Shown here: piece by piece, positions 36,449 through 58,663 of the stretch
Numbering within the stretch: the stretch's first letter is position 1
How the letters are laid out: every line of letters starts with the position of its first letter
NCBI RefSeq assembly: GCF_014224355.1
Contig: NZ_VNWP01000008.1
Span: 62,001-126,000, forward strand
DNA from: Synechococcus sp. BSA11S
GTDB lineage: Bacteria > Cyanobacteriota > Cyanobacteriia > PCC-6307 > Cyanobiaceae
Direction of reading: 5' to 3'
Length of the DNA stretch: 64,000 bases
The notes under the pieces: model-generated
What the model saw: only the letters and a program-made list of their open reading frames with translations
Database searches by the model: none
Told to the model about the DNA's origin: nothing
Made by a program: the position numbers and the translations under genes

Positions 36449-39421
36449 GTGAGTTTAGCCGATTCCGACTCCAGTCAGCGCAGTGGCGCAACAGTCGGAA
36501 TCGTTTCAGACAGTGATCTGCAGGCAATGCCGCTTGATTGGCGGTTCGTGCCCGTCAAGGACAAGCATCCTGCGGATCTTCATGGCAACAAAGACCCCAA
36601 GGACTGGTTTGATCGCTTCCAGTTCGATGCTGACTTCTTCCTTGAGCTGAACGGCAACAGACCTGAAGCCCTTGGTCTGCTCACTGGCCCCGTCAGCGGT
36701 GTGCTGGTGGTGGATCTTGATGATCACGGCTGGCCTGAATCGTTCCAGAAGGAAAGCGGCCGCACTGTTGATGATTTGCCCAGCACCATTGCCTGGTCAA
36801 GCGGCAAACCAGGACGATCAGGTCGCGCTCTTGCTGTGCCGCAGGAGTGGTGGCCATACCTGCGAAACCGCAGAGCGTTCAACTCAGAGGATGGACGCAC
36901 CCTATGGGAACTGCGCTGGGATCGTCACCAGGCCGTCATCTGCGGCAGGCATCCACAGACAGGCGCCTATCACTGGCTGGAAGGCTGCAGCCCGCAGGAA
37001 CTTGGCGACCCAGCTGAAGCGCCGGAATGGTTGCTGGAACTGTTGCTGCAGGAGCAGTTTGATGACAAGGCACAGCCTGAACCAACTGAAGCTGATGCCA
37101 TTGAGGCGCTGCAGATCATCGGCTTCCTGCCGCCTCTGGAATACCAGGACCATGACTCCTGGCTGAAGGTCGGCATGGCATTGCATCACCTTGGCTGTGA
37201 TGTGACGCATTGGGTTGAATGGTCAAGGGCCATGCCAACCTTTGATGAGAAGGAATGTCATACCCGCTGGAAGTCATTCGGAAAATACAAAGGCCGCAAG
37301 ATCGGCATGGGCTCCCTACTGAAGTGGGGAGCGAAGCACGGGTACGCCAGGAGCAGATCGACAAGACCAGGCCCTACCTACCAACATGATCGCCATATTG
37401 CTGTTGCCGAAGGTGAAGCGGTTGCACCGCTCATTGCCCGTGAGTTCCAACGGCTCAGAGCCCAAGGGCCACCCATTGTCATCCTGCAAGACCCCTGCGG
37501 CTCAGGTAAGACCAAACATGCCCATGACATCAACAGGGCTCTGGCCACACTGCCTGACATCAAGCATGTGGTTTACGTCAACAGTAGCTATCGCAATCTG
37601 TCATTCCCTGCGCTGAATCGTTACGTCAAGCCTCCTGCCAGGCATCGTGATGTCGTGGAAGTTGAAGTGAAGTTTGATATTGTCCATCGCACCCGCAGGC
37701 GTGACCAGAAAGACGACGACCTGCCCGTTGTCGAGAGCGCCACCTGTCATTACGCCTGGAACCTTGGTGACTTCAAGCGGCAGGGTGCAAAGACAGGACA
37801 CATCAAGGGCTTCTGCAATGCCTGCCCACGCAAAGCAACCTGCAGCTTCATCTCTGAGCGTGATCGCTTCCTTGCGTTCTGGCAGAAGGGTCGCACGCAG
37901 TTCGTTCGCACCAACATTGACCTGCTGCCCTTTGTTATCAGCACGCTCCCTGATGAGCTGAAGGCCAAGACTGTCATCGTCTTTGATGAAGCCAATTTGA
38001 TCAGCAAGGCGCAGAGCATCAAGTATGAGATCGTCTATGAGCGGTTTGATACCTGGCTGCAATACCTGAGGAATGATGGGCGCTTCAGGAATGATGAACT
38101 GGCCCGTACTCTTGTGGAGCAGCTGCGCGACCTGGAGATCAACACGCCTAAAAACAAGCGTTATGGCCTTGATCCTGCTGATCTCAAGGAGTACATGAAG
38201 GATTGGATCGAAGCGTTCCGCGCTATCCATGGTGATCAGATCCCCGAACACTGGGCTGATCTCGCCACTGAACCAGTTGAGTCGCCGGATGACGTACACC
38301 CCGAACAGGAATCACAGCTCACTTCCCCTCTCCTGTTCCCTGCTGTTGCAGGTGCCCTTCTGGGCTTTTATGGCGCCATCCGCTCCGATGATCACCCTCA
38401 GGGAAAGGTCGAGCCACGCATTGCCCTAACCGTCCCATCTGATGCCCTGCAGCGTCTCATCCAGAACGTTGCAGGCGCTGTCGTTCTTGATGCCACTACG
38501 GACCCTGCTCACACTCTCTCCTGCCTCTCTGCTGATCCCGACGTGCCAGCCGCCACCCTCGCCACCAGAGCCGATACAGGCATTGACCGCATCCAGTTCA
38601 TTCAGATCCCATGCCTTGGCGCTCTTACTGCCAACCGCCGACCTACCCAAACGCAACGCCGTAATGCTCTCGCCGCTGCTATCGAAGATCACATCAAACA
38701 CAAGTACATCTGGGAAGGACACCCCCTGCCGCATGGACGGACACCATCTGTTGCCGTCATTGACCAAGGAAGTAAGGCACGCTCAGGTGACCTCAAGTGG
38801 CACGTTGATAATCGTGGCTCCAATGCTGCACGCTCCTGCGCTGCTCTCATCTGCTTTGGCCTGCCCTGGATCTCCATCGGTGATGCCAAAGCTACGTTCA
38901 CCGCTCATTACCCTGATGCCACTCAACAGGACTTTGATGCTTGGTATCTCAAGCAGGTCGGTGAAGAACTGATCCAAGGTATCCATCGACTCAGGCCCAT
39001 TGACCTTGATGCCGATGATCAGCTCCAGGTCTTTCTCGTCACCAATGCCGATCTCTCTGGCATGGGCATCGACATCACACAGGCCAAAGCCGAGGACTTC
39101 TCCTGGTTCGCTGCTGACCCGCACCGCCAGACAATCGCCAAGGCCAGCAACGATCTCGACGAGCTTTTCGGTCAAGGCGCCTTCCAGGTCACGCAGGCTG
39201 CCTTCTGCACCGCCTCAGGGACGCCTAGGAGCACCCTCAAGGCCGCCTTGCAGGCCTGCGGCATGTCCTGGGCTGATCTGCTGCTGCTGGCGCCCTGGAG
39301 GGCCGCTGACGCTGAGGACGCTGCACGACCCCGCCCACGCGGACGGCCCCGCAAGCTCCAGATCCATCCAGCAGTGGCCTGGCTGGCTGCTCAACCTGCT
39401 GGTTTCTGGGCCAGAAAATAA
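36449..39421 (+). CDS. primase/helicase replication protein
   Basis: A 990-residue replication protein of plasmid/phage-satellite type. The N-terminal part resembles a prim-pol domain (LGLLTGPVSGVLVVDLDDHG near residue 75, giving the D-x-D metal site). A PriCT-2-like domain follows (HDSWLKVGMALHHLGCDVTH to RKIGMGSLLKWG, residues about 235-295). The second half is a helicase-like ATPase with Walker A ILQDPCGSGKT near residue 345 and Walker B VIVFDEAN near 510; four cysteines lie in GFCNACPRKATCSF. The start is GTG 36449 or possibly ATG 36527. This gene makes the element capable of autonomous replication. Confidence 0.8.
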   Translation: MSLADSDSSQRSGATVGIVSDSDLQAMPLDWRFVPVKDKHPADLHGNKDPKDWFDRFQFDADFFLELNGNRPEALGLLTGPVSGVLVVDLDDHGWPESFQKESGRTVDDLPSTIAWSSGKPGRSGRALAVPQEWWPYLRNRRAFNSEDGRTLWELRWDRHQAVICGRHPQTGAYHWLEGCSPQELGDPAEAPEWLLELLLQEQFDDKAQPEPTEADAIEALQIIGFLPPLEYQDHDSWLKVGMALHHLGCDVTHWVEWSRAMPTFDEKECHTRWKSFGKYKGRKIGMGSLLKWGAKHGYARSRSTRPGPTYQHDRHIAVAEGEAVAPLIAREFQRLRAQGPPIVILQDPCGSGKTKHAHDINRALATLPDIKHVVYVNSSYRNLSFPALNRYVKPPARHRDVVEVEVKFDIVHRTRRRDQKDDDLPVVESATCHYAWNLGDFKRQGAKTGHIKGFCNACPRKATCSFISERDRFLAFWQKGRTQFVRTNIDLLPFVISTLPDELKAKTVIVFDEANLISKAQSIKYEIVYERFDTWLQYLRNDGRFRNDELARTLVEQLRDLEINTPKNKRYGLDPADLKEYMKDWIEAFRAIHGDQIPEHWADLATEPVESPDDVHPEQESQLTSPLLFPAVAGALLGFYGAIRSDDHPQGKVEPRIALTVPSDALQRLIQNVAGAVVLDATTDPAHTLSCLSADPDVPAATLATRADTGIDRIQFIQIPCLGALTANRRPTQTQRRNALAAAIEDHIKHKYIWEGHPLPHGRTPSVAVIDQGSKARSGDLKWHVDNRGSNAARSCAALICFGLPWISIGDAKATFTAHYPDATQQDFDAWYLKQVGEELIQGIHRLRPIDLDADDQLQVFLVTNADLSGMGIDITQAKAEDFSWFAADPHRQTIAKASNDLDELFGQGAFQVTQAAFCTASGTPRSTLKAALQACGMSWADLLLLAPWRAADAEDAARPRPRGRPRKLQIHPAVAWLAAQPAGFWARK

Positions 39422-39545
39422 ATACCCCGATTTGGGCCAGGACTGCTTTGTGTAGTAGTAAAGCAGTCCTGGCCCACTGGCAGTGATTTGTTTGTACTAG
39501 CGCAGGGCTTCACCACAAAGCAGTCCTGGCCCAAATGAGGGTATT
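39421..39545. repeat. three-copy inverted repeat after the replication gene
   Basis: A 17-bp sequence TGGGCCAGGACTGCTTT occurs at 39433-39449 on the plus strand and, inverted, at 39460-39476 and 39517-39533, all perfect. The first two form a hairpin with a 10-bp loop. The first and third lie within larger 32-bp arms (39421-39452 and 39514-39545) that differ at two positions. It starts on the last base of the replication gene's stop codon. There is no T-run after it, so it is not a simple terminator; an origin, a resolution site or a packaging site are possible. Confidence 0.9.
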
Positions 39546-39565
39546 TAATTGCTGCTGCTGAAAGT

Positions 39566-39802
39566 GTGCCCTTGTTGAGAACTGTTCTCAGTCCTTGGCG
39601 CCCCCCGGGTGACCGCCTTCAGGCCGGCTCCAGTCGCATCAAGGACGCCATCGACCAGACAGGCATCGTCCCCTGGTGCGTCGGTGCCAGCCTCACCGCT
39701 TACGATGCCCTCAAGGGCCACGGCATCTCACGCATTCAGATCGACCTCGCCCTGGAGCAGCTGCGACGTGAAGATCAGGCTGACCAAGCTGAACTGTTCT
39801 GA
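39566..39802 (+). CDS. small hypothetical protein
   Basis: A 78-residue protein from a GTG at 39566 (or 39564 out of phase by two), ending at 39802. The sequence from SSRIKDAIDQTGIVPWCVGA to LALEQLRREDQADQAELF is helical and acidic at its end. It might be a small DNA-associated protein. It lies between the 39.5-kb inverted repeat and the HTH gene, in the same direction, and has the coding style of this element. No family recognised. Confidence 0.5.
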   Translation: MPLLRTVLSPWRPPGDRLQAGSSRIKDAIDQTGIVPWCVGASLTAYDALKGHGISRIQIDLALEQLRREDQADQAELF

Positions 39803-39844
39803 CTTGCCCGGCCACCCGTGATTAGCTGCGGCAGAATGATGGCT

Positions 39845-40489
39845 ATGGCAGAGACAAATCGGACACGACGCGGTAGAACCAACCCTGTAAAGACCGATAA
39901 GGGCACATATGGCAGTGAGCTGAAGACCCTTGATCGAATGCAGGAAGTGTGGGCACTTCGCATCCGGGGCTACAGCTTCCGGGCTATTGCAGCGCAAATG
40001 GGCATCAGTCCCAACACTGCTTGGCGTGACTGTCAGGAGGCACCTGATGGTGTGGCACTGATGGATGACACGTCCATCGCCCGCAGCCAGCTACTTGGTG
40101 GACACCGCATCCTGCTCAATCACCTGCTGAGTGAGATCGAGGAGCAGCGCCAGAACGGGCAGCGGGTGGTGGAGCTGGCGCCTGATGGCACGCCTGTCCG
40201 CACGACGGTGAAGCCGATGGACGCCAAGCTGATCGGCGAAGCCGGACGCTGCCTGGACCGGGCCGCCAGGTTGCTTGGCTTGCTCGACGGCCCCATCGAG
40301 GGCAGTGGCGGCAACCAGGTCACAAACATCACGTTGGCCGCGCCCAGCGATGGCTGCACCTTCGAGCAGCGCTGGTCCAGTACCAACACCACCACAGTGG
40401 ACGCCACGGCCACGGAGAGCCCCTCAGAGAGCCCCACAGGTGCCATTCAGGGCAGCTCAGGGGTGGACTCCCCCGCCCAGCCCTCCTGA
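39845..40489 (+). CDS. helix-turn-helix protein, terminase small subunit-like
   Basis: A 214-residue protein. The basic N-terminus (MAETNRTRRGRTNPVKTDKG) leads to a helix-turn-helix (LRIRGYSFRAIAAQMGISPN followed by TAWRDCQ). A helical core then contains KPMDAKLIGEAGRCLDRAAR and LLGLLDG, and a Ser/Thr/Pro-rich tail ends the protein. An HTH plus the AARLLGL pattern resembles small terminase or terminase-associated phage proteins that bind packaging sites. A terminase large subunit gene lies 2.6 kb downstream. A plain regulator is the alternative. Confidence 0.6.
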   Translation: MAETNRTRRGRTNPVKTDKGTYGSELKTLDRMQEVWALRIRGYSFRAIAAQMGISPNTAWRDCQEAPDGVALMDDTSIARSQLLGGHRILLNHLLSEIEEQRQNGQRVVELAPDGTPVRTTVKPMDAKLIGEAGRCLDRAARLLGLLDGPIEGSGGNQVTNITLAAPSDGCTFEQRWSSTNTTTVDATATESPSESPTGAIQGSSGVDSPAQPS

Positions 40490-40674
40490 GGGCGGCCAGA
40501 GGGGCATTCACTTCGGCGGCAGCAGGCCCTCCTCCACCGCTACATCCAGCATCCGCTGCGCCTTGGCATCAGCGACGCCACGGGCGTACCGGACAGACGG
40601 TCCAGGGCTGGGTGACCGAAAAAGTCAGCTGACGGATTTCGGTCAGCACCCTGGCCGCACGGACGCCCCTGCTA
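40490..40674. other. gene-poor gap with possible coding remnant
   Basis: No complete gene is seen. On the minus strand a short open stretch ending in a TGA near 40509 reads VRYARGVADAKAQRMLDVAV and then EEGLLPPK before the stop, without a good start codon. It could be the tail of a decayed gene. The stretch lies between the HTH gene and the end of the tyrosine recombinase gene. Confidence 0.3.
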
Positions 40675-41259
40675 TCAACCGCCAATCAATGCCAGCGCTG
40701 CCAATTCATCATTGGGCGTGACATCAACGTATCGAGCAAGCTGGTCTAGTGATGCGTGACCAGTGAAGCGTGAGATTGTCCGCAGGCTGGCACCACCCTG
40801 CGCCATTGTTGTAGCCAGACTGCGCCTGAAGCTATGGAGACTGATGCCAGTCGGCAGTTCAAGTCCATTCAATGTCTGCCGTAGTGCTAGGTCAGCCGCC
40901 TGTCTGGTCATAGGTTCAGCCAGGCCGAACCTGCCAGGGAAGGCTAGATCCTTTGGCCTTGGCTGCCGTCCATGCCTTTGTGCCCAGTGTTCACGATAAA
41001 GTTGTAGTTCTGCATTCAAGCGTTCGCCAATCTTCACTTCACGGGTCTTGCGTGTTTTGGTGGTTTGCTTGACAAACACGATGTGATCATCATGTATGGC
41101 ACCCCAACGCAGCTTGAGCGTTTCTGTGACACGGCTGCCTGTCCAGCGCATGACTGCCCACAGGCAGCGCTGTTCAGGTGATGGAGCCGCATTCAAGAGC
41201 CGCTCCAGGTCATCGGGTGTGAGGGTGCGTGCCTGACCGCTGCCATTGGTCTTGGGCAT
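40675..41259 (-). CDS. tyrosine recombinase, catalytic domain only
   Basis: A 194-residue member of the lambda-integrase superfamily. The catalytic residues are visible: Arg in MRWTGSRVTETLKLRW, the beta-hairpin lysine region VKQTTKTRKTREVKI, H-x-x-R in LHSFRRSLATTMAQGG, His in RFTGHASLDQLA and the nucleophile Tyr in RYVDV. The protein starts MPKTNGSGQARTLTPDDLER, so it lacks the N-terminal core-binding domain of ordinary integrases. It faces a cluster of GACAAGT repeats just upstream. It may recombine a site within the element, for example to resolve dimers, while the serine enzyme handles integration. Confidence 0.87.
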   Translation of the reverse strand: MPKTNGSGQARTLTPDDLERLLNAAPSPEQRCLWAVMRWTGSRVTETLKLRWGAIHDDHIVFVKQTTKTRKTREVKIGERLNAELQLYREHWAQRHGRQPRPKDLAFPGRFGLAEPMTRQAADLALRQTLNGLELPTGISLHSFRRSLATTMAQGGASLRTISRFTGHASLDQLARYVDVTPNDELAALALIGG

Positions 41260-41713
41260 GATGCCGACTTGTCTGCTGAATCCCATTCAGCCTACGACAA
41301 GTCAAAGCATTTAACAGGTGATCTGAGGGATTGTGTCAACGTCAAGTCGGCCATTCAAGGCGAGCCACTCAAGGCGACGGCTGGCACGGGCCGGCGTCCA
41401 GCGTGGCTGCTGCCTGAGCTGGCGGTAGCCGCCCACCTGTGCCGCCTGCGGGCCAGCACCCCGCCTGCCCGCCTGGGGGGTGCCTGCCTGCCCGCCTGGG
41501 GGTGCCTGAGCCGCCGCCTGCCCGCCTGCCCCTCAGCGGTACACCTGCCACTCTGACTTGTCTGCCCGTTGACCTTCTATCTAATACGACAAGTGGACTG
41601 TTACAGAGGCGGTCTGCCTGGTAGTCGCAGCTCCCACAAAACGACAAGTCGGCTGTAGATTGGAGGGGACCTGGCGGAGACATTCGACCTCCCCCGCCAG
41701 GGAGCCCCAAGCC
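41260..41713. repeat. gene-free repeat cluster upstream of the tyrosine recombinase
   Basis: No convincing gene lies here. The heptamer GACAAGT or its complement occurs five times, near 41267, 41296, 41558, 41590 and 41643. The outermost copies form a perfect 11-bp inverted pair, GCCGACTTGTC at 41263-41273 and GACAAGTCGGC at 41643-41653. Between them is a C-rich tandem repeat: CCTGCCCGCCTGGGGG at 41464-41479 and 41487-41502, plus a 12-bp partial copy at 41517. The heptamers are candidate binding sites for the adjacent recombinase. Confidence 0.6.
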
Positions 41714-42439
41714 ATGACTACCACTGCGACCCTCGGTCAGATCGACGTTGACGACCTGGAGGCAGGCTTCAGCGTCAGTATTCGCACGCTCCGGTCATCT
41801 GACCTGGCGGATGCCTTGCTGGGTGAATTCGACCGTCTGGGCTTCGGCCCAGCCATGGAGAGAGATCCGCTCACCTTTCAGCTTCAGCGTCTTGCCTGCT
41901 TCTCTACCCAGACCATCGAAGACCTGCCCGACGATCTGGCAGAAACAGCCGGCGAAACAATCGAGAACGCCATCGACACACTGAACGACCATGCACCGGA
42001 CGGCTGGCACCTTGGCTTCTCTGAAGGTGACGGCTCCGATCTGTGCTGGCAGCCGGTGAGCCTGCGGGCTCAACTCCAGGCTGTTGGCAGCCGTTGGGTT
42101 GCTGACGACTGGGACAAGCGCAGCCAGAACGATGCCATCGACGACATCATCGAACGCTTCGATGATTGCCCAGAATCCTTGCAGGACTTTGACCATTCCG
42201 ACTGGGTCAACCTGGCGGAGTGCTACACGCGTGATCTGTTGCGCCGTTGGGATCAGCAAGAGTCGGACATCCGCGAACTGTTCGACGACTACTGCGAGGC
42301 CATCGGCTGCACCAGTGCTCTGGAAGCGCTGGAAGGCCAGACCATCGAAGATCCCGACGACATGGCAGCCGCCTACGTCAATCTGGCGATGACCTGGGGA
42401 GCCCGGCTGCTGCTGGACGAGATCAACCCTGACCGCTGA
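41714..42439 (+). CDS. acidic hypothetical protein
   Basis: A 241-residue, strongly acidic protein (starts MTTTATLGQIDVDDLEAGFS) with dense Asp/Glu runs such as IEDLPDDLAETAGETIENA, DAIDDIIERFDDCPESLQDF and REQES-like regions near the C-terminus. No signal peptide, membrane helix or catalytic motif is visible. The charge pattern would suit a DNA-mimic or anti-restriction protein, but that is only a guess from composition. ATG 41714 follows the repeat cluster; the next gene starts 6 bp after the stop. Confidence 0.6.
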   Translation: MTTTATLGQIDVDDLEAGFSVSIRTLRSSDLADALLGEFDRLGFGPAMERDPLTFQLQRLACFSTQTIEDLPDDLAETAGETIENAIDTLNDHAPDGWHLGFSEGDGSDLCWQPVSLRAQLQAVGSRWVADDWDKRSQNDAIDDIIERFDDCPESLQDFDHSDWVNLAECYTRDLLRRWDQQESDIRELFDDYCEAIGCTSALEALEGQTIEDPDDMAAAYVNLAMTWGARLLLDEINPDR

Positions 42440-42445
42440 TCTGTC

Positions 42446-42766
42446 ATGGATCACCCCCAAGATCAGCTCACCACCGCCGCCGAACTGCTGACCGATGGCG
42501 TGCCGCGCAAGGATGCAGCCGAGCGCCTGGTGGAGCAATACGGCATCAGCACTGCCAGCGCTTACCGACGGCTGGCAGCCGCTGAGTCTGACGCCGGCGC
42601 TGAGCAGTCCTGCCGTCAGTGCTTCGACCTGGGCGAGTTCATCGCCGAGCAGTACGTGCAGCTGGTGCGCGGTGCTGCTGATGATGAAGCCAAGCTCAAC
42701 GCACTGGCCGGGCTCACCTCAGCCTGCAGCAAGCTGAAGCTACGGCACCTCAGCTTCGACCCCTGA
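42446..42766 (+). CDS. helix-turn-helix hypothetical protein
   Basis: A 106-residue protein with an HTH-like segment (LLTDGVPRKDAAERLVEQYG then ISTASAYRRLAAAE) and a helical end (AALTSACSKLKLRHLSF-like). The spacing of the two helices resembles homeodomain-like HTHs of phage small terminases and regulators. It follows the acidic protein gene by 6 bp and is followed by a likely terminator. It could be the packaging-site binder paired with the large terminase. Confidence 0.55.
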   Translation: MDHPQDQLTTAAELLTDGVPRKDAAERLVEQYGISTASAYRRLAAAESDAGAEQSCRQCFDLGEFIAEQYVQLVRGAADDEAKLNALAGLTSACSKLKLRHLSFDP

Positions 42767-42791
42767 GAATCACGATAATTCTCACGCCCAG

Positions 42792-42817
42792 GCGGTCCAC
42801 ATCGGGCCGCTTTTTTT
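42792..42817 (+). terminator. Rho-independent terminator
   Basis: GCGGTCC and GGGCCGC form an imperfect 7-bp stem around the loop ACATC, followed by seven T residues at 42811-42817. It lies 26 bp after the HTH gene stop and would end the 41.7-42.8 kb transcript. Confidence 0.75.
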
Positions 42818-43093
42818 GACCTGGTGGGCAGGATGGGAACCCACCATCACACCACAGGTGGGCACGATTGACCCGGGGTATGGTAGCGATTACCCAACCG
42901 CCAGGTACCAGTCCCACCAGATCCCCAACCAATACATATCACCTATCAACCTACCTGTAGCACAGCAAGAAGGGGGGTAGGGGCTCAATTTCTGAGCGCC
43001 GCAATACACAAGCCCGCCCACGAAAGTACCCTAAGTCTATGTTTCCCAGCCCGCAAGTTCTCAGCTAGGGTGAGCCCAACAAGTTTGTGGCCG
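42818..43093. other. AT-richer leader of the packaging genes
   Basis: No gene is seen. A second hairpin, TGGTGGG (42822-42828) facing CCCACCA (42840-42846), follows the terminator. The rest is AT-richer and presumably carries the promoter of the terminase gene. I could not assign clear -35/-10 boxes. Confidence 0.4.
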
Positions 43094-44572
43094 ATGGTCA
43101 GCACTGCACCTCCGGGTCCAATCCAGCAGCAGGTACTGGAGCCGAACAAGCTGCAGCAGCTGATGCTGGATGTGCCGTTGGATCACATCCTCGTAGCGGC
43201 GACAGCGAAGGCAACAGGCAAGACCTTCGGCATTGTGCTGCTGGTCATCAGGGACGCAAAGATCCTCAAGGATGAGTACCACTGCCTCATCACTCGTAGC
43301 ACATTCCAAGCGCTTCAAGAGCTGCAGACGCTGCTCTACAAGTATCTGACGCTGGCCTACCCGGGCACCACATGGAACGCGGGAGAGAACACATTCCGCA
43401 TTGGAGGCAAGTCAGCACCGTACGGCACATGTGAGCTGGCCTATTCCGCCAGCAGCCCTTTAGAGCAGATCAGGGCACAGAACAGGCTGCAGGGCCGCAG
43501 TAAGTGCGTGGCCATCCACGACGAAGTGGGTGTGATGCCTTCACCTGACTTCTACGACACCCTCGCCGGCATCATCAGAGCAAAGCCTGGGGTACAGACG
43601 CGGCAGGTGTTCCTGGCCAACCCCGGAGGCCCTGGGCATGTCTGGCTGAAGGAGAGGTTTGCGCTACCTGCTGGGCTGCCTGGGCCGATGCAGCCAAAGC
43701 GGTTCTGGAGCGCCACCTACGAGAAGTGGGTGGTGTTTGTCACGGCCAACGCCAGCATCAACCCGCACATCGACTGGGAGGCATACAAGCGCAACGTCGA
43801 GCTGATGGCCGGGGGAGACCCGGCGATGCTGGCGGCGCTGCTGGAGGGCCGGTGGGATCTGGACCTGGGCGGGTCGTTCTTCGCCAGCTGCTGGAGCCCG
43901 ACGCGGTGCCGTGTGGACATCAGGCCCGGGCAGATCAACCTCAAGACGCACAGCCCCAGGGCCTTCGTGTGCGGCGACTTCGGCTACAGCGCCCCGAGCT
44001 GCTTCTTTTTGGTCGTCCCTGATCCGCCGTTCATCGACTGCCCGAAGGGAAGCCTGCTGCTGGCTGATGAGCTGTATCTGGCAGCGCCTGGTGCTGGTGG
44101 GCGTCGGGACTGGCGGCGGGGGCCGTGCCTGAGTTCAGCGGAGCAGGCAGGGGTGCTGCGGCAGTGGCTGCAGCGGTGGGGTGTGGAACCTGAGGATCTG
44201 AAGGTCCTGGCGGATGACGCGGTGTTCAACCGGACCGGCAGTGAGAAGGGATCAACGGCTGAGGACTTCAGGGCCGGCGGTGTGCGGCTGCTGCCGGCGG
44301 AGAAGGCACGCACCCCCATGAACGTGGGCCTGGCGATGCTGAGAAACAGACTGAAGGCCACCGGGGTGGATCACGAGCGCCCGTGGCTGATGTGGAGCGT
44401 GGCGTGCGAGGGCCTGGAGGCCACCATGCCGAGCCTGCCGACGCACCCCCGGGACGTGGAGGTGATCGCCGACGGCACTGGAATTGACCATGCCGTGGAT
44501 GCGGTCAGGTACGCGGTGGCCTGGTATGGCAGCAGGTACACGAGTGGCTCCACGAACTACAGGGTCTGGTGA
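43094..44572 (+). CDS. terL: phage terminase large subunit
   Basis: DNA-packaging motor protein with an N-terminal ATPase and a C-terminal RNase H-like nuclease. The ATPase shows a Walker A-like ILVAATAKATGKTFGIVLL, the coupling-type segment LAYSASSPLEQIRAQNRLQG, and Walker B with catalytic Glu in CVAIHDEVGVM. The nuclease domain starts with AFVCGDFGYSAPSC, and later acidic residues lie in VLADDAVFN and IDHAVDAVRYA. Length is 492 aa from ATG 43094; a GTG at 43070 would add eight residues. No portal or capsid gene accompanies it. Confidence 0.88.
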   Translation: MVSTAPPGPIQQQVLEPNKLQQLMLDVPLDHILVAATAKATGKTFGIVLLVIRDAKILKDEYHCLITRSTFQALQELQTLLYKYLTLAYPGTTWNAGENTFRIGGKSAPYGTCELAYSASSPLEQIRAQNRLQGRSKCVAIHDEVGVMPSPDFYDTLAGIIRAKPGVQTRQVFLANPGGPGHVWLKERFALPAGLPGPMQPKRFWSATYEKWVVFVTANASINPHIDWEAYKRNVELMAGGDPAMLAALLEGRWDLDLGGSFFASCWSPTRCRVDIRPGQINLKTHSPRAFVCGDFGYSAPSCFFLVVPDPPFIDCPKGSLLLADELYLAAPGAGGRRDWRRGPCLSSAEQAGVLRQWLQRWGVEPEDLKVLADDAVFNRTGSEKGSTAEDFRAGGVRLLPAEKARTPMNVGLAMLRNRLKATGVDHERPWLMWSVACEGLEATMPSLPTHPRDVEVIADGTGIDHAVDAVRYAVAWYGSRYTSGSTNYRVW

Positions 44573-45069
44573 TGGGGCTGCGTAACAGCCTCAACTGGTC
44601 CGACACCGCCCTGTTGGCCCAGCAGGAGGCCTTGGCCCGACTGGCTGAGCCTGGTATCCGTCAGCTCAACGAGAACCGCCGCAGAGAGGCCTTGAGGCTG
44701 CGTGAGCTGTGGAGTCCGCTGGCTCCTCGATGCTGCGTGCGGCTCACCGAGCAGGCCTCTCGCCGATTCTATGGAGAAATTGTCTGCCGGCCTTCTGGCG
44801 TTGTGCCCATCGACGGAATTCTGGAAAGAGTCGAGGGTGAGCACGGCCTGATCCGTATCTTCTGGGTCTACCGAGATATCACCGCCCGAGGGGGCAACAA
44901 ACCCATCAGCGAGTTGGTCAGGGCTCACCGCTCAGAGATCGCAGCCAGGCAGCCGGAAGGGATCAGCGTGTGGGATGCCCGCGACATAGGGAGGGGGGCA
45001 GTTGCCCGTGCGGAGCGGCTCGAGCAGCCAAGCCCGACCCAGCCAAGCAACTACTGGTCGGACATCTGA
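44572..45069 (+). CDS. hypothetical protein after terminase
   Basis: A 165-residue protein whose ATG shares the last base of the terminase stop codon, so translation is probably coupled. It begins MGLRNSLNWSDTALLAQQEA, continues with a charged helical region (QLNENRRREALRLRELWS) and a beta-rich middle (RRFYGEIVCRPSGVVPIDGI), and has a Pro/Ser tail. No known domain is seen. Its position suggests a packaging or head-assembly accessory, where a portal gene would normally stand, but it is far too short for a portal. Confidence 0.6.
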   Translation: MGLRNSLNWSDTALLAQQEALARLAEPGIRQLNENRRREALRLRELWSPLAPRCCVRLTEQASRRFYGEIVCRPSGVVPIDGILERVEGEHGLIRIFWVYRDITARGGNKPISELVRAHRSEIAARQPEGISVWDARDIGRGAVARAERLEQPSPTQPSNYWSDI

Positions 45070-45179
45070 ACCAGCTGCTCAATGAATGTGCTCGGCGGGC
45101 CGCGGAAGTACCGAGCCGACAGAAGTTCTGGGAGTAGCTGGTAATTCGTAGCGCTCATCACTGGCTTTAGAATCAGGCT

Positions 45180-45320
45180 GTGAACAACCCAGACATGCCT
45201 GCAACCGGCAGCCACAGCAAGTGCGTCTTCGCCCTACGGCGCACTTCTGAGCGACAGGCTGTTGAGATCAAGCAGGAAACTGTTCTGAGTTACAAGCAGG
45301 CGCTGAGGTGGCCACGATGA
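45180..45320 (+). CDS. 46-residue hypothetical protein
   Basis: A short frame from GTG 45180 to TGA 45320 encodes 46 residues (VNNPDMPATGSHSKCVFALR, then RTSERQAVEIKQETVLSYKQ). Its stop overlaps the ATG of the next gene as ATGA, the usual coupling pattern in this element. This placement and a sensible basic composition are the only support. Confidence 0.4.
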   Translation: MNNPDMPATGSHSKCVFALRRTSERQAVEIKQETVLSYKQALRWPR

Positions 45321-46075
45321 GCGAATACGGTGAAGCTCTGGATCTCTACGTCAAAAGCCGAGAGCAGCTGGTCCTCGAAGCACTGGAGCCTGTGGTGGTC
45401 AATGCCATCGGGAAGCTGGAAGAGTTGATCGCCGCACTGCCTGGTGGCGATCTGGAGCGTGAATCGGCACTACAGCGACTGGTGGCAGTGAATGGGCCAG
45501 CCGAAGCCATATTGGCCCCCATCAATGATGCGCTGGCGAGTGAACTGAGCAGGGCCTTGGCGACATCAACGCCTGAAATCCGCCGCCGTGCTGCGGGGCG
45601 CCTGCCTGGCAGCCGCACCGATTTTCCGCAGCTGGATGCAGCGATGCTGCTGCGAGCGGTGGAAGTGGACGGCAAGAGCCTGGCGGACTGGACGAAGCGA
45701 ACCAGCCCCTCCCGCTGGATGGAGCAGCTGCTCCGGCGGGTGGAGACCGCCACCAGGGCTGGCTGGGAGCGTGACCAACGCGCTCGTGCACTGGCCAGTG
45801 AAGCGGCCGCCGCCATCAGCGCCACCGTTCGCAATGCCTTGCAGGTCACCGTGGACAGCGCCTTCTGGCAGCACGCACAGACCCAGCAGGAGATCACCTG
45901 GCGCACCGCACCGTCAATGGTGCAGCCAAGGGCCTGGCAATGGGTGACAGCAGCTGATGAAGGGGTGTGTTCAATCTGTCGGCCACTGCATCTGCAGATA
46001 GCAGCTGATCGCACTGCCTTCCCACCGATCCCTGCTCATCCACGTTGCAGGTGCAATCTGGAGCCGCTGAGCTAG
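45317..46075 (+). CDS. Mu F/SPP1 gp7-like minor head protein
   Basis: A 252-residue protein. The first 180 residues are helical (MSEYGEALDLYVKSREQLVL onward). The C-terminus carries the head-morphogenesis motif: WQWVTAADEGVCSICRPLHL with a C-x-x-C pair, then FPPIPAHPRCRCNLEPLS. This is the signature of the phage Mu gpF/SPP1 gp7 family, which joins the portal and helps scaffold or eject DNA. It normally follows a portal gene, which is missing here. ATG 45317 is preferred over the GTG three codons earlier. Confidence 0.78.
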   Translation: MSEYGEALDLYVKSREQLVLEALEPVVVNAIGKLEELIAALPGGDLERESALQRLVAVNGPAEAILAPINDALASELSRALATSTPEIRRRAAGRLPGSRTDFPQLDAAMLLRAVEVDGKSLADWTKRTSPSRWMEQLLRRVETATRAGWERDQRARALASEAAAAISATVRNALQVTVDSAFWQHAQTQQEITWRTAPSMVQPRAWQWVTAADEGVCSICRPLHLQIAADRTAFPPIPAHPRCRCNLEPLS

Positions 46076-46084
46076 GGATGCTTG

Positions 46085-46412
46085 TGAAAGCCCCACACTC
46101 AAGGGGTAACAGTTTTAGTCAGAAGTCTTGATCTCACCCCCGAGAGCAGCAGCACGATCTGGCGTTCTGGATCGAGGGGTATTACAACCGCGAACGCCGC
46201 CATTCAACGATCGGCTACGTCAGTCCGATCGACTACGAGCAGCGGTTCATCGCGACCTCTACACTTGCTCCTGTGAACCCCTGATCAGTGTCCACGAAAT
46301 CGGGGGAACCCCACAGTGCAGAAGTTGGTGGATAAGGTGCTGGCACTTATGGAGGCCAGTTCACCTGACGGGTGACTATTACGACCAGGCGCTCCTTGCA
46401 GGCAACTCAAAC
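46085..46412. mobile_element. IS3-family insertion sequence remnant
   Basis: This stretch contains the 3' end of an IS3-type transposase gene and its right terminal end. The sequence TGTCCACGAAATCGGGGGAA begins at 46289, directly after the transposase stop, and resembles IS3-family inverted-repeat ends. No left end was found. A 12-bp piece of the 35.8-kb dyad motif (TCAAGGGGTAAC, 46099-46110) lies just before the remnant. From about 46320 to 46412 I see nothing recognisable. Confidence 0.6.
46132..46284 (+). pseudogene. IS3-family transposase OrfB, C-terminal fragment
   Basis: The plus-strand frame ending at TGA 46282-46284 reads FWIEGYYNRERRHSTIGYVS and then PIDYEQRFIA. This is the conserved end of the DDE transposase of IS3-family elements, where NxxRxHSxLGYxSPxxYE is diagnostic. 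Only about 50 codons remain, and no start or upstream catalytic residues are present, so it is a decayed copy marking an old insertion at the boundary between the phage-like element and the envelope-machine island. Confidence 0.8.
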
Positions 46413-47474
46413 TCACTGGAGCTTCGCCCTCAGTGCCGCCCTTACGCGCTCGGCATACTTGTATATGTCACCAACAACATCTATCGGTACTTGCCTAGGC
46501 TCGGTTTCATCGAAAATCTCTACCTTCTTCTGTGAGCCATTAAAGTAAAGCCGTACAACGGCCTTCCAGCTATTCTGGTCAAGCAGTACATTGCAGTAGG
46601 TTTTGGTATCCTTCTCGGAGAGGCGGCTGGGATCAATCTCTGCGGCGCAGATAGCCCGTACAATGTAGAGGCCCTCCAGTTCCTCTGGCGTGGTGACGAT
46701 GCCATCATCTGGTACTTGCTCTTCCTCGACTGGTGGGTGCTCCTCTGCAGTCTTCTCACGGGCCATGGCCTCGCTGAGGCGGTCATTGATCCGATCGTTG
46801 ATGTAGAGCTTAACGGCATCGAGCACGATCGGCTTGAACTTTTCAAGTAGCTGGCCGCTGATCCGTTCAGCGGAATGGACACGCCGCGTCATCTCGCGCA
46901 CCAACCATTCGCTGGGGTCTGTCAACTCGGCACGTATCTGCTCCTTGACGCCACGAAGGTACTTAAGCCTCTCAGCAGCAGAGAGCAGCTTGTCAAGGTC
47001 GAACATCGACTTGGAAAGCTGCTTGATCTGATCGAGCGGGGCACTGCGCAGATCGAACAGGTCGACTTCTGCAAAGGGCTTAGTGTCCATCTTATTCTTA
47101 TCGTCCAAGTCGCTGAAGAACCTGAACAGACGCCCGTTGGTGAGGATTCCAATCCTTGCCCTGGTGGCATGAAAATACCGGGCGAGCTGCCCCATCTCGG
47201 CATCTTTTAGGTCAAGTGTGTAAGGCTTGGCTTCGACCAGGATCTTTGGCTCGCCGTTTTCCAGAACGGCATAGTCCACACGCTCACCCTGCTTGATGCC
47301 TGGCAGGTCTGCGGCGAATTCCGGCTTGACCTCCATCGGGTTGAAGATGTCGTAACCGAGTGCCTGCAGGAATGGGGCGATCAGGGCCATCTTTGTGGCC
47401 TCCTCGTTGGTGAGGCTCGGTCCTGCCTGCTGAGCACGTGCAGCGAGTGTCTGAAGGTGGTCGATCAGATCCAT
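46413..47474 (-). CDS. stand-alone HsdR N-terminal-like nuclease domain protein
   Basis: A 353-residue protein related to the N-terminal endonuclease domain of type I restriction R subunits. The nuclease motifs are ERVDYAVLENGEPKILVEAK, with the D and the E-x-K of a PD-(D/E)xK fold, after the helix EEATKMALIAPFLQALGYDI and the FNPMEVKPEFAAD block. No helicase domain, HsdM or HsdS is nearby. The second half has a helical stretch and an acidic linker (EEHPPVEEEQVPDDG). Start MDLIDHLQTLAARAQ at 47474. Such solo proteins are frequent in defence islands; whether it cuts DNA is not known. Confidence 0.78.
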   Translation of the reverse strand: MDLIDHLQTLAARAQQAGPSLTNEEATKMALIAPFLQALGYDIFNPMEVKPEFAADLPGIKQGERVDYAVLENGEPKILVEAKPYTLDLKDAEMGQLARYFHATRARIGILTNGRLFRFFSDLDDKNKMDTKPFAEVDLFDLRSAPLDQIKQLSKSMFDLDKLLSAAERLKYLRGVKEQIRAELTDPSEWLVREMTRRVHSAERISGQLLEKFKPIVLDAVKLYINDRINDRLSEAMAREKTAEEHPPVEEEQVPDDGIVTTPEELEGLYIVRAICAAEIDPSRLSEKDTKTYCNVLLDQNSWKAVVRLYFNGSQKKVEIFDETEPRQVPIDVVGDIYKYAERVRAALRAKLQ

Positions 47475-47620
47475 TTCCCGGGAGGTATTGCGAAAGAACA
47501 GAAGATTGACCCTCGTAGCTTGCACCTGCATCTCCCTTCACGCAATCTCTTTGGGTCTGGCTTAATCTCCTGTCGCGACGTGGGGCTTTTCATGCCGGGG
47601 CGCTCTTGATCCCTCGCTGC

Positions 47621-48415
47621 TCAGTTCTCCACAGGATCCAGCCCCGCAAGGACGGTGACGCTGCCCTGGCTACTCACCACCTCGACCCCATCGCTCCGCC
47701 GCGAGAAATGCCCGAGGTTCCGATCGGCTTTGCCCTGGCCGTCCTTGCTGAAGATCTCCACCGCGCCATTGTTCCAGAACACGTAAGTGCTGCGGTAGCC
47801 GTCAGCCCAACGCACGTTGTAGACGGTGTGGCCGTTGCTGTTGGTGAGGGCGCTGGCTTCGCAGGGCAGTTCCTTGGCGCTGGCATCGCGGTAGCTACGA
47901 AAGGTACAGGGCTCCCAAACAGATCCATCTCTAGAGCTAGCCGAAGAGGAGGGGCTAACTGTCTCCTGTGGTGGGAGCGGCCGCTCAGCGGCAGACCTCT
48001 CAGGGGGCTGGATCTCAGCGGGTGCACGAGCCTCCGTTTCATTGGTATCGCGGCGGCTCTCGGTCGTTGGTGCAAGATTCCTTTCTGGAGAGGAGGAATC
48101 ACTGGTGTTCGTCACGCTCCTGTTCAGGGAGGCGAGCCCAACCGCCATCACCAAGAACCCCGTCAAAGAGCCCAGCAGAAAGGACCAAGGGACGCCCGGC
48201 CGCGTCAGGGGGGATGCTGGAAAACGACTAGTTGACGCTGAGGGACCAGGAGGAGGGCCTGGAGGCCTGTTGATGCGGCCAGGTGGCCCTTTTGAATCGG
48301 ATGTCTCGAGAGATGGAGATGGTGGCTGGGGCGTGGGTTGGTCGAGCTCATGGAGCAGCTCTTCGGCGCGAGCGACGATGTCCTCGGGATCTCCCCGGCG
48401 CTCGCTCTGGCTCAT
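47621..48415 (-). CDS. single-pass membrane protein of the motor-linked cluster
   Basis: A 264-residue protein. The cytosolic first part begins MSQSERRGDPEDIVARAEEL and is rich in Pro and Ser. One membrane helix follows near residue 80-100 (SFLLGSLTGFLVMAVGLASL). The external part has a Ser/Glu/Pro linker and a C-terminal beta-type domain with WEPCTFRSYRDASAKELPCE and YNVRWADGYRSTYVFWNNGA, whose two cysteines may pair. It resembles nothing I can name. The ATG overlaps the end of the next upstream gene (48412) by 4 bp. It is last in the ZorA/B-like transcript. Confidence 0.65.
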   Translation of the reverse strand: MSQSERRGDPEDIVARAEELLHELDQPTPQPPSPSLETSDSKGPPGRINRPPGPPPGPSASTSRFPASPLTRPGVPWSFLLGSLTGFLVMAVGLASLNRSVTNTSDSSSPERNLAPTTESRRDTNETEARAPAEIQPPERSAAERPLPPQETVSPSSSASSRDGSVWEPCTFRSYRDASAKELPCEASALTNSNGHTVYNVRWADGYRSTYVFWNNGAVEIFSKDGQGKADRNLGHFSRRSDGVEVVSSQGSVTVLAGLDPVEN

Positions 48416-49080
48416 GACTGAGTCTCCGAGATCCTCAACAGGCGGCTGAGCAGATCCTGCTGGACCCGCAGTTGAGAGCGAAGCTCGTTGAGCTCGCTCT
48501 CCTGCCGGGTCATCTGCTGGCTCACCCGACGCTCGAGATTTTCCAGCCGGCGCAGGAGCATCGTCTGCTTCTCCTGTTCGGGGAAAGGACGATGGCGGGG
48601 CACCATCTGGCCTGGACTGAACAGAGTCCACCGTTGACCTCGCACCACCGGCTTGAAGACTGGGAGCGACTGCAACACCAGATCCTGTGGCCCCTCCAGG
48701 CCTTCGGGCCTGGGGAAGATCTGATGGAAGGACTCGCTCTCCAACAACCAAGACGGAGGATCAGCCTGAACCCAGACGACTGCGTCACCACTGGTGAGCT
48801 CGCAGAGTTGGAACACCGAGTCGGTCTCTGCCACGGTGAGGCGAAGGCCGCGCTGAGCAGTGGGGGTGAGCTCTGCCGGAGCCTGGTAGGCCGCCAGAGC
48901 CTGAGGGGAACGGCGCACCAGCCGGGTGAGCAGGAGCTCATCCACTGGCCATGGCCTTCGGGCCGGAGATTCGCCGGGCGGACCCAGCGGTGGAGCGGGC
49001 AGGGCCGTATGGGCCTGAAGCTGCTCGATGTCTCGCTCCAGTTGCAGCAGGCGATCGAGAGGTGAGGGTGTAGCGGCCAT
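48412..49080 (-). CDS. coiled-coil protein, paralogue of the gene at 51494
   Basis: A 222-residue soluble protein. A short N-terminal helix (PLDRLLQLERDIEQLQAH) leads to a domain of about 110 residues with VDELLLTRLVRRSPQALAAY and LQSLPVFKPVVRGQRWTLFS, then a C-terminal coiled coil (LLRRLENLERRVSQQM onward). The domain and the coiled-coil start (LENLERRV versus LANLERRI) match the plus-strand gene at 51494-52207, so the two are paralogues. The gene is one base from the MotB-like gene stop and overlaps the next gene by 4 bp. Confidence 0.7.
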   Translation of the reverse strand: MAATPSPLDRLLQLERDIEQLQAHTALPAPPLGPPGESPARRPWPVDELLLTRLVRRSPQALAAYQAPAELTPTAQRGLRLTVAETDSVFQLCELTSGDAVVWVQADPPSWLLESESFHQIFPRPEGLEGPQDLVLQSLPVFKPVVRGQRWTLFSPGQMVPRHRPFPEQEKQTMLLRRLENLERRVSQQMTRQESELNELRSQLRVQQDLLSRLLRISETQS

Positions 49081-49081
49081 C

Positions 49082-49687
49082 TCAACGGTCCTCCTGACGC
49101 GTGAAGCGAAGCTCGATGCGACGCCGCTCAGCTCGATCCTTCGTGTCGGCGGGAGCATAACGACCATCCGCAGCGATCAGGCTACCGGCGGAATAGGGGC
49201 GGATGATCAACCCCTGCTTGCCATTGGGATCAAGCCTGGCCCTGAGCTCATGGGCAACCGCTAGGGCGCGGAGCAGCCCTAAATCCGTGTTCGAGCCTGC
49301 ATTAAAGCCGCTGAGAGCGGAGGAGCTACTGGCCTTCGGCATCAGCAGATCGAGGTTGCTCATCCCTGGCGAGGGCTGACCATCGGTGTGGCCTATGACT
49401 TCTACGCTGTCGATTCGGTACTTCTTGATGATCTCGCGGATTTCCGGCAAACGGCGATCCAGGGCTCTTCTGAAGTCGGGACCGAGCACATAGCTGCCTG
49501 TGGTGAAGCGAAAGGACTCCCGCTCCGTCAGGGGGACGAGGGGTGGTTTTTCATTACTGGCCCGAGCCAGGGCAGCGACGGCCACGGTCAGCAGAAGGAT
49601 TAGAAGGCTGTTGCTGAGCAGATCGGTGTAACCGATCCAATAATTCGTGTCGCTGTCTCGGGAGCGCCGGCTAGAGCGAGCCATCAT
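49082..49687 (-). CDS. MotB/OmpA-like stator protein (ZorB-like)
   Basis: A 201-residue protein with an N-terminal basic tail, one membrane helix (NYWIGYTDLLSNSLLILLLT) and a periplasmic OmpA-like peptidoglycan-binding domain (IDSVEVIGHTDGQPSPG, later RRRIELRF). The Asp in GYTDLL sits exactly where MotB carries its proton-binding aspartate (AYADFM), so ion flow is plausible. This layout matches MotB and ZorB of Zorya defence. The ATG at 49687 overlaps the MotA-like gene's stop, the usual arrangement of stator pairs. No flagellar genes are near. Confidence 0.82.
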   Translation of the reverse strand: MMARSSRRSRDSDTNYWIGYTDLLSNSLLILLLTVAVAALARASNEKPPLVPLTERESFRFTTGSYVLGPDFRRALDRRLPEIREIIKKYRIDSVEVIGHTDGQPSPGMSNLDLLMPKASSSSALSGFNAGSNTDLGLLRALAVAHELRARLDPNGKQGLIIRPYSAGSLIAADGRYAPADTKDRAERRRIELRFTRQEDR

Positions 49688-51318
49688 CAACGGCCTCTAT
49701 CAGCATCTCGGCCATCGAGCCGCGCAAGGGATGCCAGGTTGAGAAGGCGGGACTCCAGATCCCCGAGTAGTTGGACAAGCCCCTGGCTTAGGTTCTGGGC
49801 GTAAAGGGTCGGCTGATCAAGTTGAGCCAGCGCGGATCGCTGGGTGTCGATCGCAGCACCAAGATCCTGCTGCAACTGGTTAGTCAGTTGCTCGATGGTC
49901 TCGCGGGCATGCTTGCTGCGCTCGGCCAGCAAGGCGTCATCCTCGAGCTTGGCGTTCTGCACAGTGGTCACGAAGGCGCTGGTGAGGTCATCGAGACGCA
50001 CCACATTGCGGTTCCAGTTGCTGAGCGCGGTCTCAAGGGCAGAGGCGAACACCTGGCAGCTTTCGGCAACGGAGGCATCGGCGGCTAGGCGAGCGCGGAC
50101 GGATTCGGCAACCTCCAGCGCAAGTTTGCGATCGCGCATGACCTCCAGGCGGGCTTCTCGGAGCTGCTTACTGGATTCAACAGCAGACTGGTTGCTCTGG
50201 TCCAGAGACATGCTCGCCTGCTGCAGGGACTGGATCTCCTTCTGAATCTGCTGGCTGGCCAGTCGGCAGGACTGCAGTTCTGTCTCCGCGGTCTTGGCGA
50301 GCAGCTTCCACTCCGCCTGGGTGGACATCAGTGAATCTCGCACATCGACAAGGCGAGCACTGAGGCCATCTGAGCTGGCTGTGATCTGTTCCTGTGACTC
50401 CTGCAGGCTCTGCACCGATTGCTGCAGGGTCGTGGCGAAGTCGGTGTCGCGAAAGGCCTGGGCGGCCTGCACGAAATCCTGCCCGCTCTCGTTGAAGGCG
50501 TTGGCCACGCTTCCCAGCTGTCGAACGGCAATCTGGGCCTGGGAGGTCAGGCTGGTATTCACGTCGAAGATCTCCTTAAGCTTGGCGGAAAAGGCATCCT
50601 TCATGGCCGACTCGACCGCGTTATAGACGGCCAGGGGCAGGTCGCCAGCTGACTTATTTAAGTCCTGAATCGACTTGCGCAGGGGAGCCATCACCTTGCT
50701 GTCGAGCTGCTGGGGAAGCACGGTCTCCAGCCAGCTGCTCAGCAGTGCTTCGCAGCGCTCCAGGCAGTTCCTGGTGCCGACGATCTGCGTCCAGATCAGC
50801 ACCAGCAAACTCAGAAACAGACCCAGCAGGCTCGTCTGAAATGCAGCCCCCATGGGTGCAACTATGCCTGAGAGGGCTGTCATTGTTTCTTCCGTGCTGG
50901 CATTCTTCGCCAGGGCTCCAGCAATCTCGCTCAGGCCGATAGTCAGGCCTGCAAAGGTACCCAGAAGGCCCAGGGAGATCAGGATGCCCGGGGCCTGCCG
51001 CAGCCAGCTCTGGGCCGACGCAGCTGTGATCTGACGGAAGACGAAGGGCAGGGAGATGGTCTCGATCTCGCCGGCGCTGAATTCGGCCGCATCGACCTGA
51101 TCGACATGAGACAGCAACGCGATGTAACGGTTCTTGATTCGCTCAAGGCGATCACCAAGCTCCGGAGCTTCCGAGTCGTCCTGGTGGAGCTGGGCCAGCC
51201 TGGCCGCCAGCGGCATGGTCAGACGCGCCAGCTGGCCGGAAAGGCCAATCGCCACGAATGCCACCGCCACCATCAAAAGCAGGATCACGACTTTCGAGAG
51301 GTTGATAAGAACATCCAT
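49687..51318 (-). CDS. MotA/ExbB-like protein with long coiled-coil tail (ZorA-like)
   Basis: A 543-residue membrane protein. Helix 1 is near residues 5-28 (LSKVVILLLMVAVAFVAIGL). The MotA/TolQ/ExbB core has PGILISLGLLGTFAGLTIGL and GAAFQTSLLGLFLSLLVLIW. The remaining 320 residues are a long coiled-coil-rich cytosolic tail (from APLRKSIQDLNKSAGD on). ZorA of Zorya systems has the same layout: a proton-channel domain and a long helical tail. The ATG at 51318 faces the plus-strand gene at 51494 across 175 bp. It pairs with the MotB-like protein. Confidence 0.82.
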   Translation of the reverse strand: MDVLINLSKVVILLLMVAVAFVAIGLSGQLARLTMPLAARLAQLHQDDSEAPELGDRLERIKNRYIALLSHVDQVDAAEFSAGEIETISLPFVFRQITAASAQSWLRQAPGILISLGLLGTFAGLTIGLSEIAGALAKNASTEETMTALSGIVAPMGAAFQTSLLGLFLSLLVLIWTQIVGTRNCLERCEALLSSWLETVLPQQLDSKVMAPLRKSIQDLNKSAGDLPLAVYNAVESAMKDAFSAKLKEIFDVNTSLTSQAQIAVRQLGSVANAFNESGQDFVQAAQAFRDTDFATTLQQSVQSLQESQEQITASSDGLSARLVDVRDSLMSTQAEWKLLAKTAETELQSCRLASQQIQKEIQSLQQASMSLDQSNQSAVESSKQLREARLEVMRDRKLALEVAESVRARLAADASVAESCQVFASALETALSNWNRNVVRLDDLTSAFVTTVQNAKLEDDALLAERSKHARETIEQLTNQLQQDLGAAIDTQRSALAQLDQPTLYAQNLSQGLVQLLGDLESRLLNLASLARLDGRDADRGR

Positions 51319-51493
51319 CAGGCTGAAGGGGGCGACAAAATCTGGTCGTGTTGTGTGACTGATATAGTAGATGTTTGCCCTCCACCATGCCTAAATCGAT
51401 TGGTCAGCGCTGGCTGCGCTGACGCCTCAAGCAACGCCACAGGCTTTTGTTAGGATGAGTTACCAAGGGGGGGGCTCGGTAAGGACGCCGACC
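51319..51493. promoter_or_regulatory. divergent intergenic region inside the motor cluster
   Basis: This 175-bp stretch separates the leftward MotA-like gene from the rightward coiled-coil gene, so it must carry two promoters. TATAGT at 51363-51368 is a possible plus-strand -10 box, without a clear -35. AAGGA at 51480-51484 is a Shine-Dalgarno-like sequence before the ATG at 51494 and supports that start. Confidence 0.35.
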
Positions 51494-52207
51494 ATGGAAG
51501 AAAGCAAGATTGTCGAATCTCTCAAGTTCCTGCTGAGCAGCGTCAAAAAGCTCAGTGACAGCTTCATTACCACCGAGAAGAAGCTCACACGCAGTTTCGA
51601 CAACGTCGCTGCTGATGTGGTTGATCTCCAAGAGCGCATTGAGTGGCTGGAGAAACAACTGGTCGATCTCAGTGATGGCGCCCTGGTATCTTCTCGCACG
51701 CAGATGACACCAGGGTTGCCCGTGCGCCCTGGTAGTGAAGAGCGAGTCGTGCCGGCTATCAATCTGCCCCTGGAGGACATTCTTGATGTGTATGCGAGCA
51801 CGCCGGCTCTGCTGGAACCCTTCAGTCGTCCCTGCAGCGTCAGTGCACGTACCCTCAGCGGTGAGATCGAGGAGGTGGAGCTGGAGATGTTTGTGCAGGG
51901 CACCACCTGGGCGCTGGAAGCCCTGGATGGGGTTTGGCTGCTGGTGCCCCGGCCGGGAACACTGGAGCGCAGAACGCAACTGGAATCCCTGGAGCGGCTC
52001 TACGCCATCGAAGGGGTAAAGGAATTGCCAGCCTTGCTGCAGCTCATCGAACCGGCCAGTGCCATGGTGGTGGTGCATGGGCGGCGCTGGCAGCTCAGGC
52101 AGAAGGGGCTCTTGAGCGTGAACCCCGATCCCCTCAGGGTCAGCACCGCTGAGAGATTGGCCAACCTGGAACGTCGCATCGCCAGGCTGGAAGGGACAAC
52201 CGGCTGA
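51494..52207 (+). CDS. coiled-coil protein on the opposite strand of the cluster
   Basis: A 237-residue soluble protein: an N-terminal coiled coil (ESLKFLLSSVKKLSDSFITT, through VVDLQERIEWLEKQLVDL), a 120-residue domain (LEDILDVYASTPALLEPFSR; LQLIEPASAMVVVHGRRWQL) and a short C-terminal coiled coil (ERLANLERRIARLE). The last two parts are alike in sequence and order to the product of the gene at 48412-49080. It is the only plus-strand gene in the cluster and stops one base from the convergent membrane-protein gene, so it is transcribed from its own promoter. ATG 51494 has a good ribosome-binding site. Confidence 0.72.
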   Translation: MEESKIVESLKFLLSSVKKLSDSFITTEKKLTRSFDNVAADVVDLQERIEWLEKQLVDLSDGALVSSRTQMTPGLPVRPGSEERVVPAINLPLEDILDVYASTPALLEPFSRPCSVSARTLSGEIEEVELEMFVQGTTWALEALDGVWLLVPRPGTLERRTQLESLERLYAIEGVKELPALLQLIEPASAMVVVHGRRWQLRQKGLLSVNPDPLRVSTAERLANLERRIARLEGTTG

Positions 52208-52208
52208 A

Positions 52209-53234: not shown

Positions 53235-53265
53235 GGTGCAAGGGGAAATGCCAGATGGGGGATGT

Positions 53266-56592: not shown

Positions 56593-56616
56593 GGCGGCGG
56601 TTGTGGTGGTGGGGAG

Positions 56617-58122: not shown

Positions 58123-58123
58123 C

Positions 58124-58651: not shown

Positions 58652-58663
58652 CGAGGAGAGGAT

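Follow-up and report, generated by a model that had tools for sequence, protein, structure and literature searches.

A candidate stem-loop replication origin directly behind a Prim-Pol rep gene in an integrated phage-like element of Synechococcus

We found a nested inverted repeat that begins at the stop codon of a primase gene (rep) in the window, the whole stretch of 64,000 nucleotides of Synechococcus sp. BSA11S DNA analyzed here. Judging from its sequence and from related loci, this stem-loop is probably the cis-acting replication origin of an integrated phage-like element, with the product of the adjacent rep gene as the initiator. We favor an origin because rep is also followed immediately by inverted repeats at three loci with a homologous Rep half (L033, L043, and L094), because the 3′ flanks of 16 divergent rep genes are enriched for repeats in two orientations, and because a second element in the same genome (L093) separates the structure from packaging. 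An earlier note on this DNA had regarded the structure as reminiscent of a replication origin, a resolution site, or a packaging site, and the comparison with relatives lends support to the first of these.

To our knowledge, few origins of integrated phages or satellites of picocyanobacteria have been mapped, and the reading favored here, in which iteron-like repeats next to the Prim-Pol rep of a cyanobacterial phage-like element form a stem-loop origin, would be a variation on a known type. Under a rule of looking for two-orientation repeats immediately behind primase genes, such origins would become testable, and candidate replicons for Synechococcus/Cyanobium vectors would be at hand.

Structure of the inverted repeat and its adjacent gene

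The stem-loop consists of copies of one unit, TGGGCCAGGACTGCTTT, arranged as nested inverted repeats (Table 1). Copies A, B, and C are identical over all 17 nt. The earlier note had reported three exact copies, one in plus and two in inverted orientation, and a perfect 17-bp hairpin; its coordinates and copy number were right, and the A/B stem is indeed perfect. It had also placed the start of the structure at the primase stop codon, which agrees with the left outer arm beginning at the T of the rep stop TAA (39419–39421). Its value of 32 bp for the outer arms matches the number of complementary positions (32 of 34; 39419–39452/39514–39547), but the arm length is 34 nt. Within these arms lies a perfect core of 23 bp (39430–39452/39514–39536). 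AT-rich shoulders span 39414–39432 and 39534–39556, and the center (39477–39516) has an AT content of 48%.

Table 1. Features around the stem-loop, and repeat units in the rep 3′ flanks of related loci (positions are those of the window)
Feature	Position	Strand	Description
rep gene	36449..39421	+	Prim-Pol, PriCT_2, ATPase/helicase-like half, and C-terminal HTH; proposed initiator
C-terminal HTH-like domain of Rep (~residues 895–955)	39131..39313	+	Proposed DNA-binding part; AF2 helices
Partial fourth copy	39407–39414	+	8-bp core TGGGCCAG, inside the rep 3′ end
Left outer arm	39419–39452	+	Starts on the T of the rep TAA; AT-rich shoulder AAATACCC
Repeat copy A	39433–39449	+	TGGGCCAGGACTGCTTT, 17 nt; direct reading and repeat search
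Repeat copy B	39460–39476	−	Inverted TGGGCCAGGACTGCTTT; with A, perfect 17-bp hairpin with 10-nt loop
Right outer arm	39514–39547	−	Terminates in AT-rich shoulder GGGTATTTA
Repeat copy C	39517–39533	−	Inverted TGGGCCAGGACTGCTTT; pairs with A in the long stem
78-aa ORF	39566..39802	+	Matches the in-frame C-terminal end of the L093 915-aa Rep (47% identity, 57 aa)
HTH protein	39818..40489	+	Putative TerS by position; HTH_23 weak, PHROG 645 E 3.5e-12; 89% identical in L093
Flank repeat unit, L032			GAAGGCAT
Flank repeat unit, L033/L043			ATGGGAAATGGGACA, also TTGTCCCA
Flank repeat unit, L034			TTCACATGTGAA
Flank repeat unit, L035/L044			GGGGGGACA
Flank repeat unit, L037/L045			GGTTGGAA
Flank repeat unit, L040			AGGTTGAG

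The nested inverted repeat is far above chance expectation. The only perfect inverted repeats in the 64-kb window with arms of at least 13 nt and a loop of at most 150 nt were those of the stem-loop (arms of 23 and 17 nt), whereas 100 dinucleotide shuffles yielded no arm longer than 16 nt. The fold z-scores were −6.8 (RNA) and −6.9 (DNA), and none of the shuffles folded equally well. In addition, the 17-mer occurs at a single locus in the 2.88-Mb host genome.

The adjacent Rep matched the Pfam models Prim-Pol (E 9e-15) and PriCT_2 (E 6e-17), and its ATPase-like half carries DPCGSGKT and DEAN motifs. This helicase half matched no Pfam model, and the SF3, D5, and VapE models gave no match to Rep; the same was true of a PDB sequence search with the Rep profile and of an NCBIfam search at E 0.01. 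The AF2 model of full-length Rep was too poor for use; the C-terminal domain modeled in isolation gave HTH-like helices at a pLDDT of ~80–90. Among PDB folds, the best matches to this domain were mostly HTH repressors, none of them significant.

Comparison within the host genome and with relatives

The genes downstream of rep are a small ORF, an HTH gene (TerS-like by position), a tyrosine integrase, a TerL-like gene, and a Mu F/SPP1 gp7-like gene. A second element in the host genome, L093 (G000:C34), shares this packaging module at 90–95% DNA identity (L093 8857–16066 against window 39694–46314), with the TerS-like protein 89%, the tyrosine integrase 100%, and the TerL-like protein 98% identical. 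The DNA homology begins at window position 39694, and the HTH gene is the first gene of the common module. Upstream of it, L093 encodes another Rep, of the D5 type and 915 aa long, and repeats of the GTGGACGTTGA type lie inside the 3′ end of that rep. The inverted repeat of the window is absent from L093 DNA and has no other copy in the host genome. Because L093 combines nearly the same packaging genes with another Rep and other repeats, the inverted repeat is part of the replication module and not of the packaging module. Furthermore, from its similarity to the L093 Rep, the 78-aa ORF is probably a remnant, the C-terminal tail, of a previous rep, marking a mosaic junction between replication and packaging modules; the tail may have been left behind when the rep cassette was exchanged. 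The two elements offer a natural test of Rep–origin specificity and compatibility.

The helicase/HTH half of Rep is homologous to those of L033, L043, and L094, and all three loci have inverted repeats directly 3′ of rep, with sequences unlike that of the window. Between L033 and L043, whose Reps are 63% identical, the spacer has diverged, whereas the ATGGGAAATGGGACA/TTGTCCCA blocks and a TCTCTCT core are kept; for these two flanks, neither fold energy nor repeat cover was significant on its own. In L094, nested inverted repeats follow right after the rep stop, with perfect outer arms of 15 bp (GCAATTGTCTTTTTC) and inner arms matching at 15 of 16 positions, and the 3′ flank has a fold z-score of −8.6. 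A Prim-Pol domain was undetectable in these three Reps; L033 has a DUF3854 domain, and L094 matched no Pfam model. Since the three loci keep the repeats without a detectable Prim-Pol domain, the repeat feature follows the helicase/HTH half.

The earlier note had proposed searching relatives for conservation of the structure. Repeats recur at the same position in many of them; the same 17-nt unit was present in no close relative in the collections searched. No Rep relative closer than the L033 lineage was found in the viral or genome contigs searched, the stem-loop DNA was absent from the 59 other genomes searched, and a DNA similarity search in phages gave no match. The exact 17-mer had one match in viral contigs; it sits inside a gene, and we took it as chance.

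We collected 20 loci with homologous primases within the family of the host; the source of L108/L033 is a Synechococcus of that same family. Directly 3′ of many of these rep genes is a non-coding stretch in which one short unit is repeated in both orientations. The unit differs by rep lineage, and pairs of Reps at 61–76% identity have a unit in common (examples in Table 1). An earlier score based on any repeated 8-mer gave a noisy signal where coding DNA is GC-rich, and it was replaced by a two-orientation measure, which counts 7-mers occurring at least three times, in both orientations, within 400 bp. By this measure, 8 of the 16 non-redundant rep 3′ flanks of the first set, in which the pattern had been noticed before it was measured, ranked within the top 5% when set against 5,123 background windows (p = 3.5e-7, binomial). 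A second set comprised 14 loci found later with the PriCT_2 profile, of which ~12 are independent. Three of these (L153, in which GGAGGCA occurs 12 times; L155, in which CGTGAAA occurs 8 times; and L154) were in the top 5%, and many gave no signal. About half of the relatives' rep 3′ flanks are not repeat-rich by the two-orientation measure. Two-orientation repeats 3′ of rep are a tendency among these genes and are not universal.

The pattern is strong in the cultured cyanophage S-LBS1 (MG271909.1), in which 11 copies of AGGTTAGG in both orientations lie directly behind the primase gene (L115 7133–7538). This region is a candidate origin on the basis of its repeats, which the text of the S-LBS1 genome paper does not mention. 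Conversely, comparable 3′ repeats were absent from the plasmid homologues, including pANS, and L031, which has a Prim-Pol half 49% identical to that of the window and a VapE-type helicase, has no such repeats. Separately, a TCTCTCT/AGAGAGA tract occurs among the repeats of otherwise unrelated flanks (L033, L034, L035, L036, L041, and L043). It may be a common melting or host-factor site and is absent in the window.

Alternative explanations

The hairpins could act in RNA, as a bidirectional transcription terminator or an RNA-level barrier between rep and the packaging genes. A hairpin does lie directly at the stop codon, it is very stable as RNA, and the minus strand has a weak terminator-like match (39443–39424). 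However, neither hairpin is followed by a T-tract on the coding strand (a U-tract in the transcript), in line with the earlier note's rejection of a terminator, and no Rfam family matched above its gathering score. The relatives also point away from a terminator: their repeats are many and short, in both orientations, often spread over 200–300 bp rather than forming one hairpin, and the L033 and L043 flanks are not RNA-structured beyond chance. We therefore regard action in RNA as improbable. The downstream TerS-like HTH protein (39818–40489) might instead bind the stem-loop as an operator or pac site. Pac sites often lie near terS, and the large gene that comes next is the HTH gene, here as in L033/L043, L031, and L094. 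Against this, L093 encodes the 89% identical HTH protein and the 98% identical TerL-like protein without the inverted repeat, of which the genome has no other copy, and the repeats of the relatives vary with rep lineage. An operator or pac site is thus quite unlikely, and the packaging site that the earlier note had listed among its options has lost ground.

Another possibility retains the structure as part of an origin but changes its mode of action. In RSF1010, the single-strand initiation sites ssiA and ssiB are hairpins recognized by the RepB′ primase (PMC4234260), and the hairpins of the window might similarly be read as single-stranded DNA by the Prim-Pol domain of Rep during strand-displacement replication. 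The domain needed for this is present, yet L033, L043, and L094 keep inverted repeats at this position with no detectable Prim-Pol, and we give such a mechanism little chance, slightly less than a pac site. Least probable of all, in our judgment, is a mobile inverted-repeat element (MITE) or a recombination or attachment site. Long inverted arms at the ends, with TA-rich DNA on either side, would suit such an element, and two recombinase genes lie nearby; however, the structure is single-copy in the genome and missing from the 59 other genomes, its sole viral-contig match looks like chance, and the relatives keep the feature at the same position.

Known systems and proposed mechanism

An origin directly behind a primase gene has precedents. 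In the Sulfolobus plasmid pRN1, replication depends on a stem-loop of 100 nt that lies immediately 3′ of orf904, a Prim-Pol/helicase/HTH gene, and that still functions at another place on the plasmid, and Bordetella phage BIP-1 has a predicted stem-loop 3′ of a rep gene whose product has PriCT_2 (PMC4234260). The window resembles both in having, just behind a Prim-Pol rep, a large stem-loop of ~100 nt, kept in position and poorly conserved in sequence, and it resembles pRN1 in a Rep that combines Prim-Pol, helicase, and C-terminal HTH parts, the HTH of the window being predicted. Unlike the window, pRN1 has an SF3 helicase and a stem-loop without repeated units, whereas in the window one unit, present three to four times, makes up the arms, and three homologues of the window Rep use another N-terminus. 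In PICI, the origin lies directly 3′ of rep, sometimes with the terS gene next (PMC6092414). The order rep, putative origin, and terS-like gene in the window is similar to that of PICI/SaPI, and in both cases the repeats immediately behind rep vary from element to element. The two iteron sets around an AT-rich region in PICI contrast with the long inverted arms and the center of 48% AT found here.

Repeats recognized by an initiator are also known in other satellites. The initiator of the phage satellite PLE has inverted sub-repeats as iterons (PMC7145576), and P4 alpha, a fused primase-helicase, binds the origin repeats (ori-crr) through its C-terminal HTH (PMC4234260). Rep shares with P4 alpha the fused primase-helicase arrangement and, by prediction, the C-terminal HTH, but the P4 primase is of the Toprim type, with no homology in the searches done. 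Rep is likewise a cyanobacterial primase-helicase as in the CyRepA1 replicons pSYSA and pANS, and its Prim-Pol half is 34% identical to a pANS protein annotated as CyRepA1 family. The origin of pSYSA, however, involves a transcribed region upstream of the gene (PMC9978351), and pANS has no 3′ repeats comparable to those of the window.

If the stem-loop is an origin, replication might proceed as follows. After excision or induction, the C-terminal HTH of Rep would bind the oppositely oriented repeats. Copy A could pair either with C, as the long stem, or with B, as the short hairpin; these would be alternative folds able to extrude when the DNA is supercoiled, and the AT-rich shoulders might open. 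Unwinding by the ATPase half of Rep would follow, and the Prim-Pol half would make primers for the host replisome. The binding step calls for caution because, in pRN1, Rep was not seen to bind the stem-loop specifically (PMC4234260).

More broadly, phage-like elements of picocyanobacteria may carry exchangeable Rep–ori cassettes, in which the origin usually lies directly 3′ of rep and consists of Rep-specific repeats, arrayed or palindromic, whose sequence changes with rep lineage. Cassette swaps would let near-identical packaging modules coexist without replication incompatibility, and the window origin would switch between the mutually exclusive hairpins A–B and A–C. Taken as a whole, this combined picture is doubtful, and we offer it tentatively.

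Extent of the element

The element starts with a large serine integrase, and homology with all eight same-genus relatives ends at 33384, beside this gene. By this comparison, 33384 is the left island edge; with that boundary 6 kb off, the stem-loop is unlikely to be where the serine integrase attaches the element. The right island edge was not found on the contig. Further downstream, window positions 46413–63770 encode HSDR_N, Nmad2, Nmad3, and SNase-domain proteins, together with weak FtsA- and tubulin-like matches, and by content this region is a defense-like or cargo cluster.
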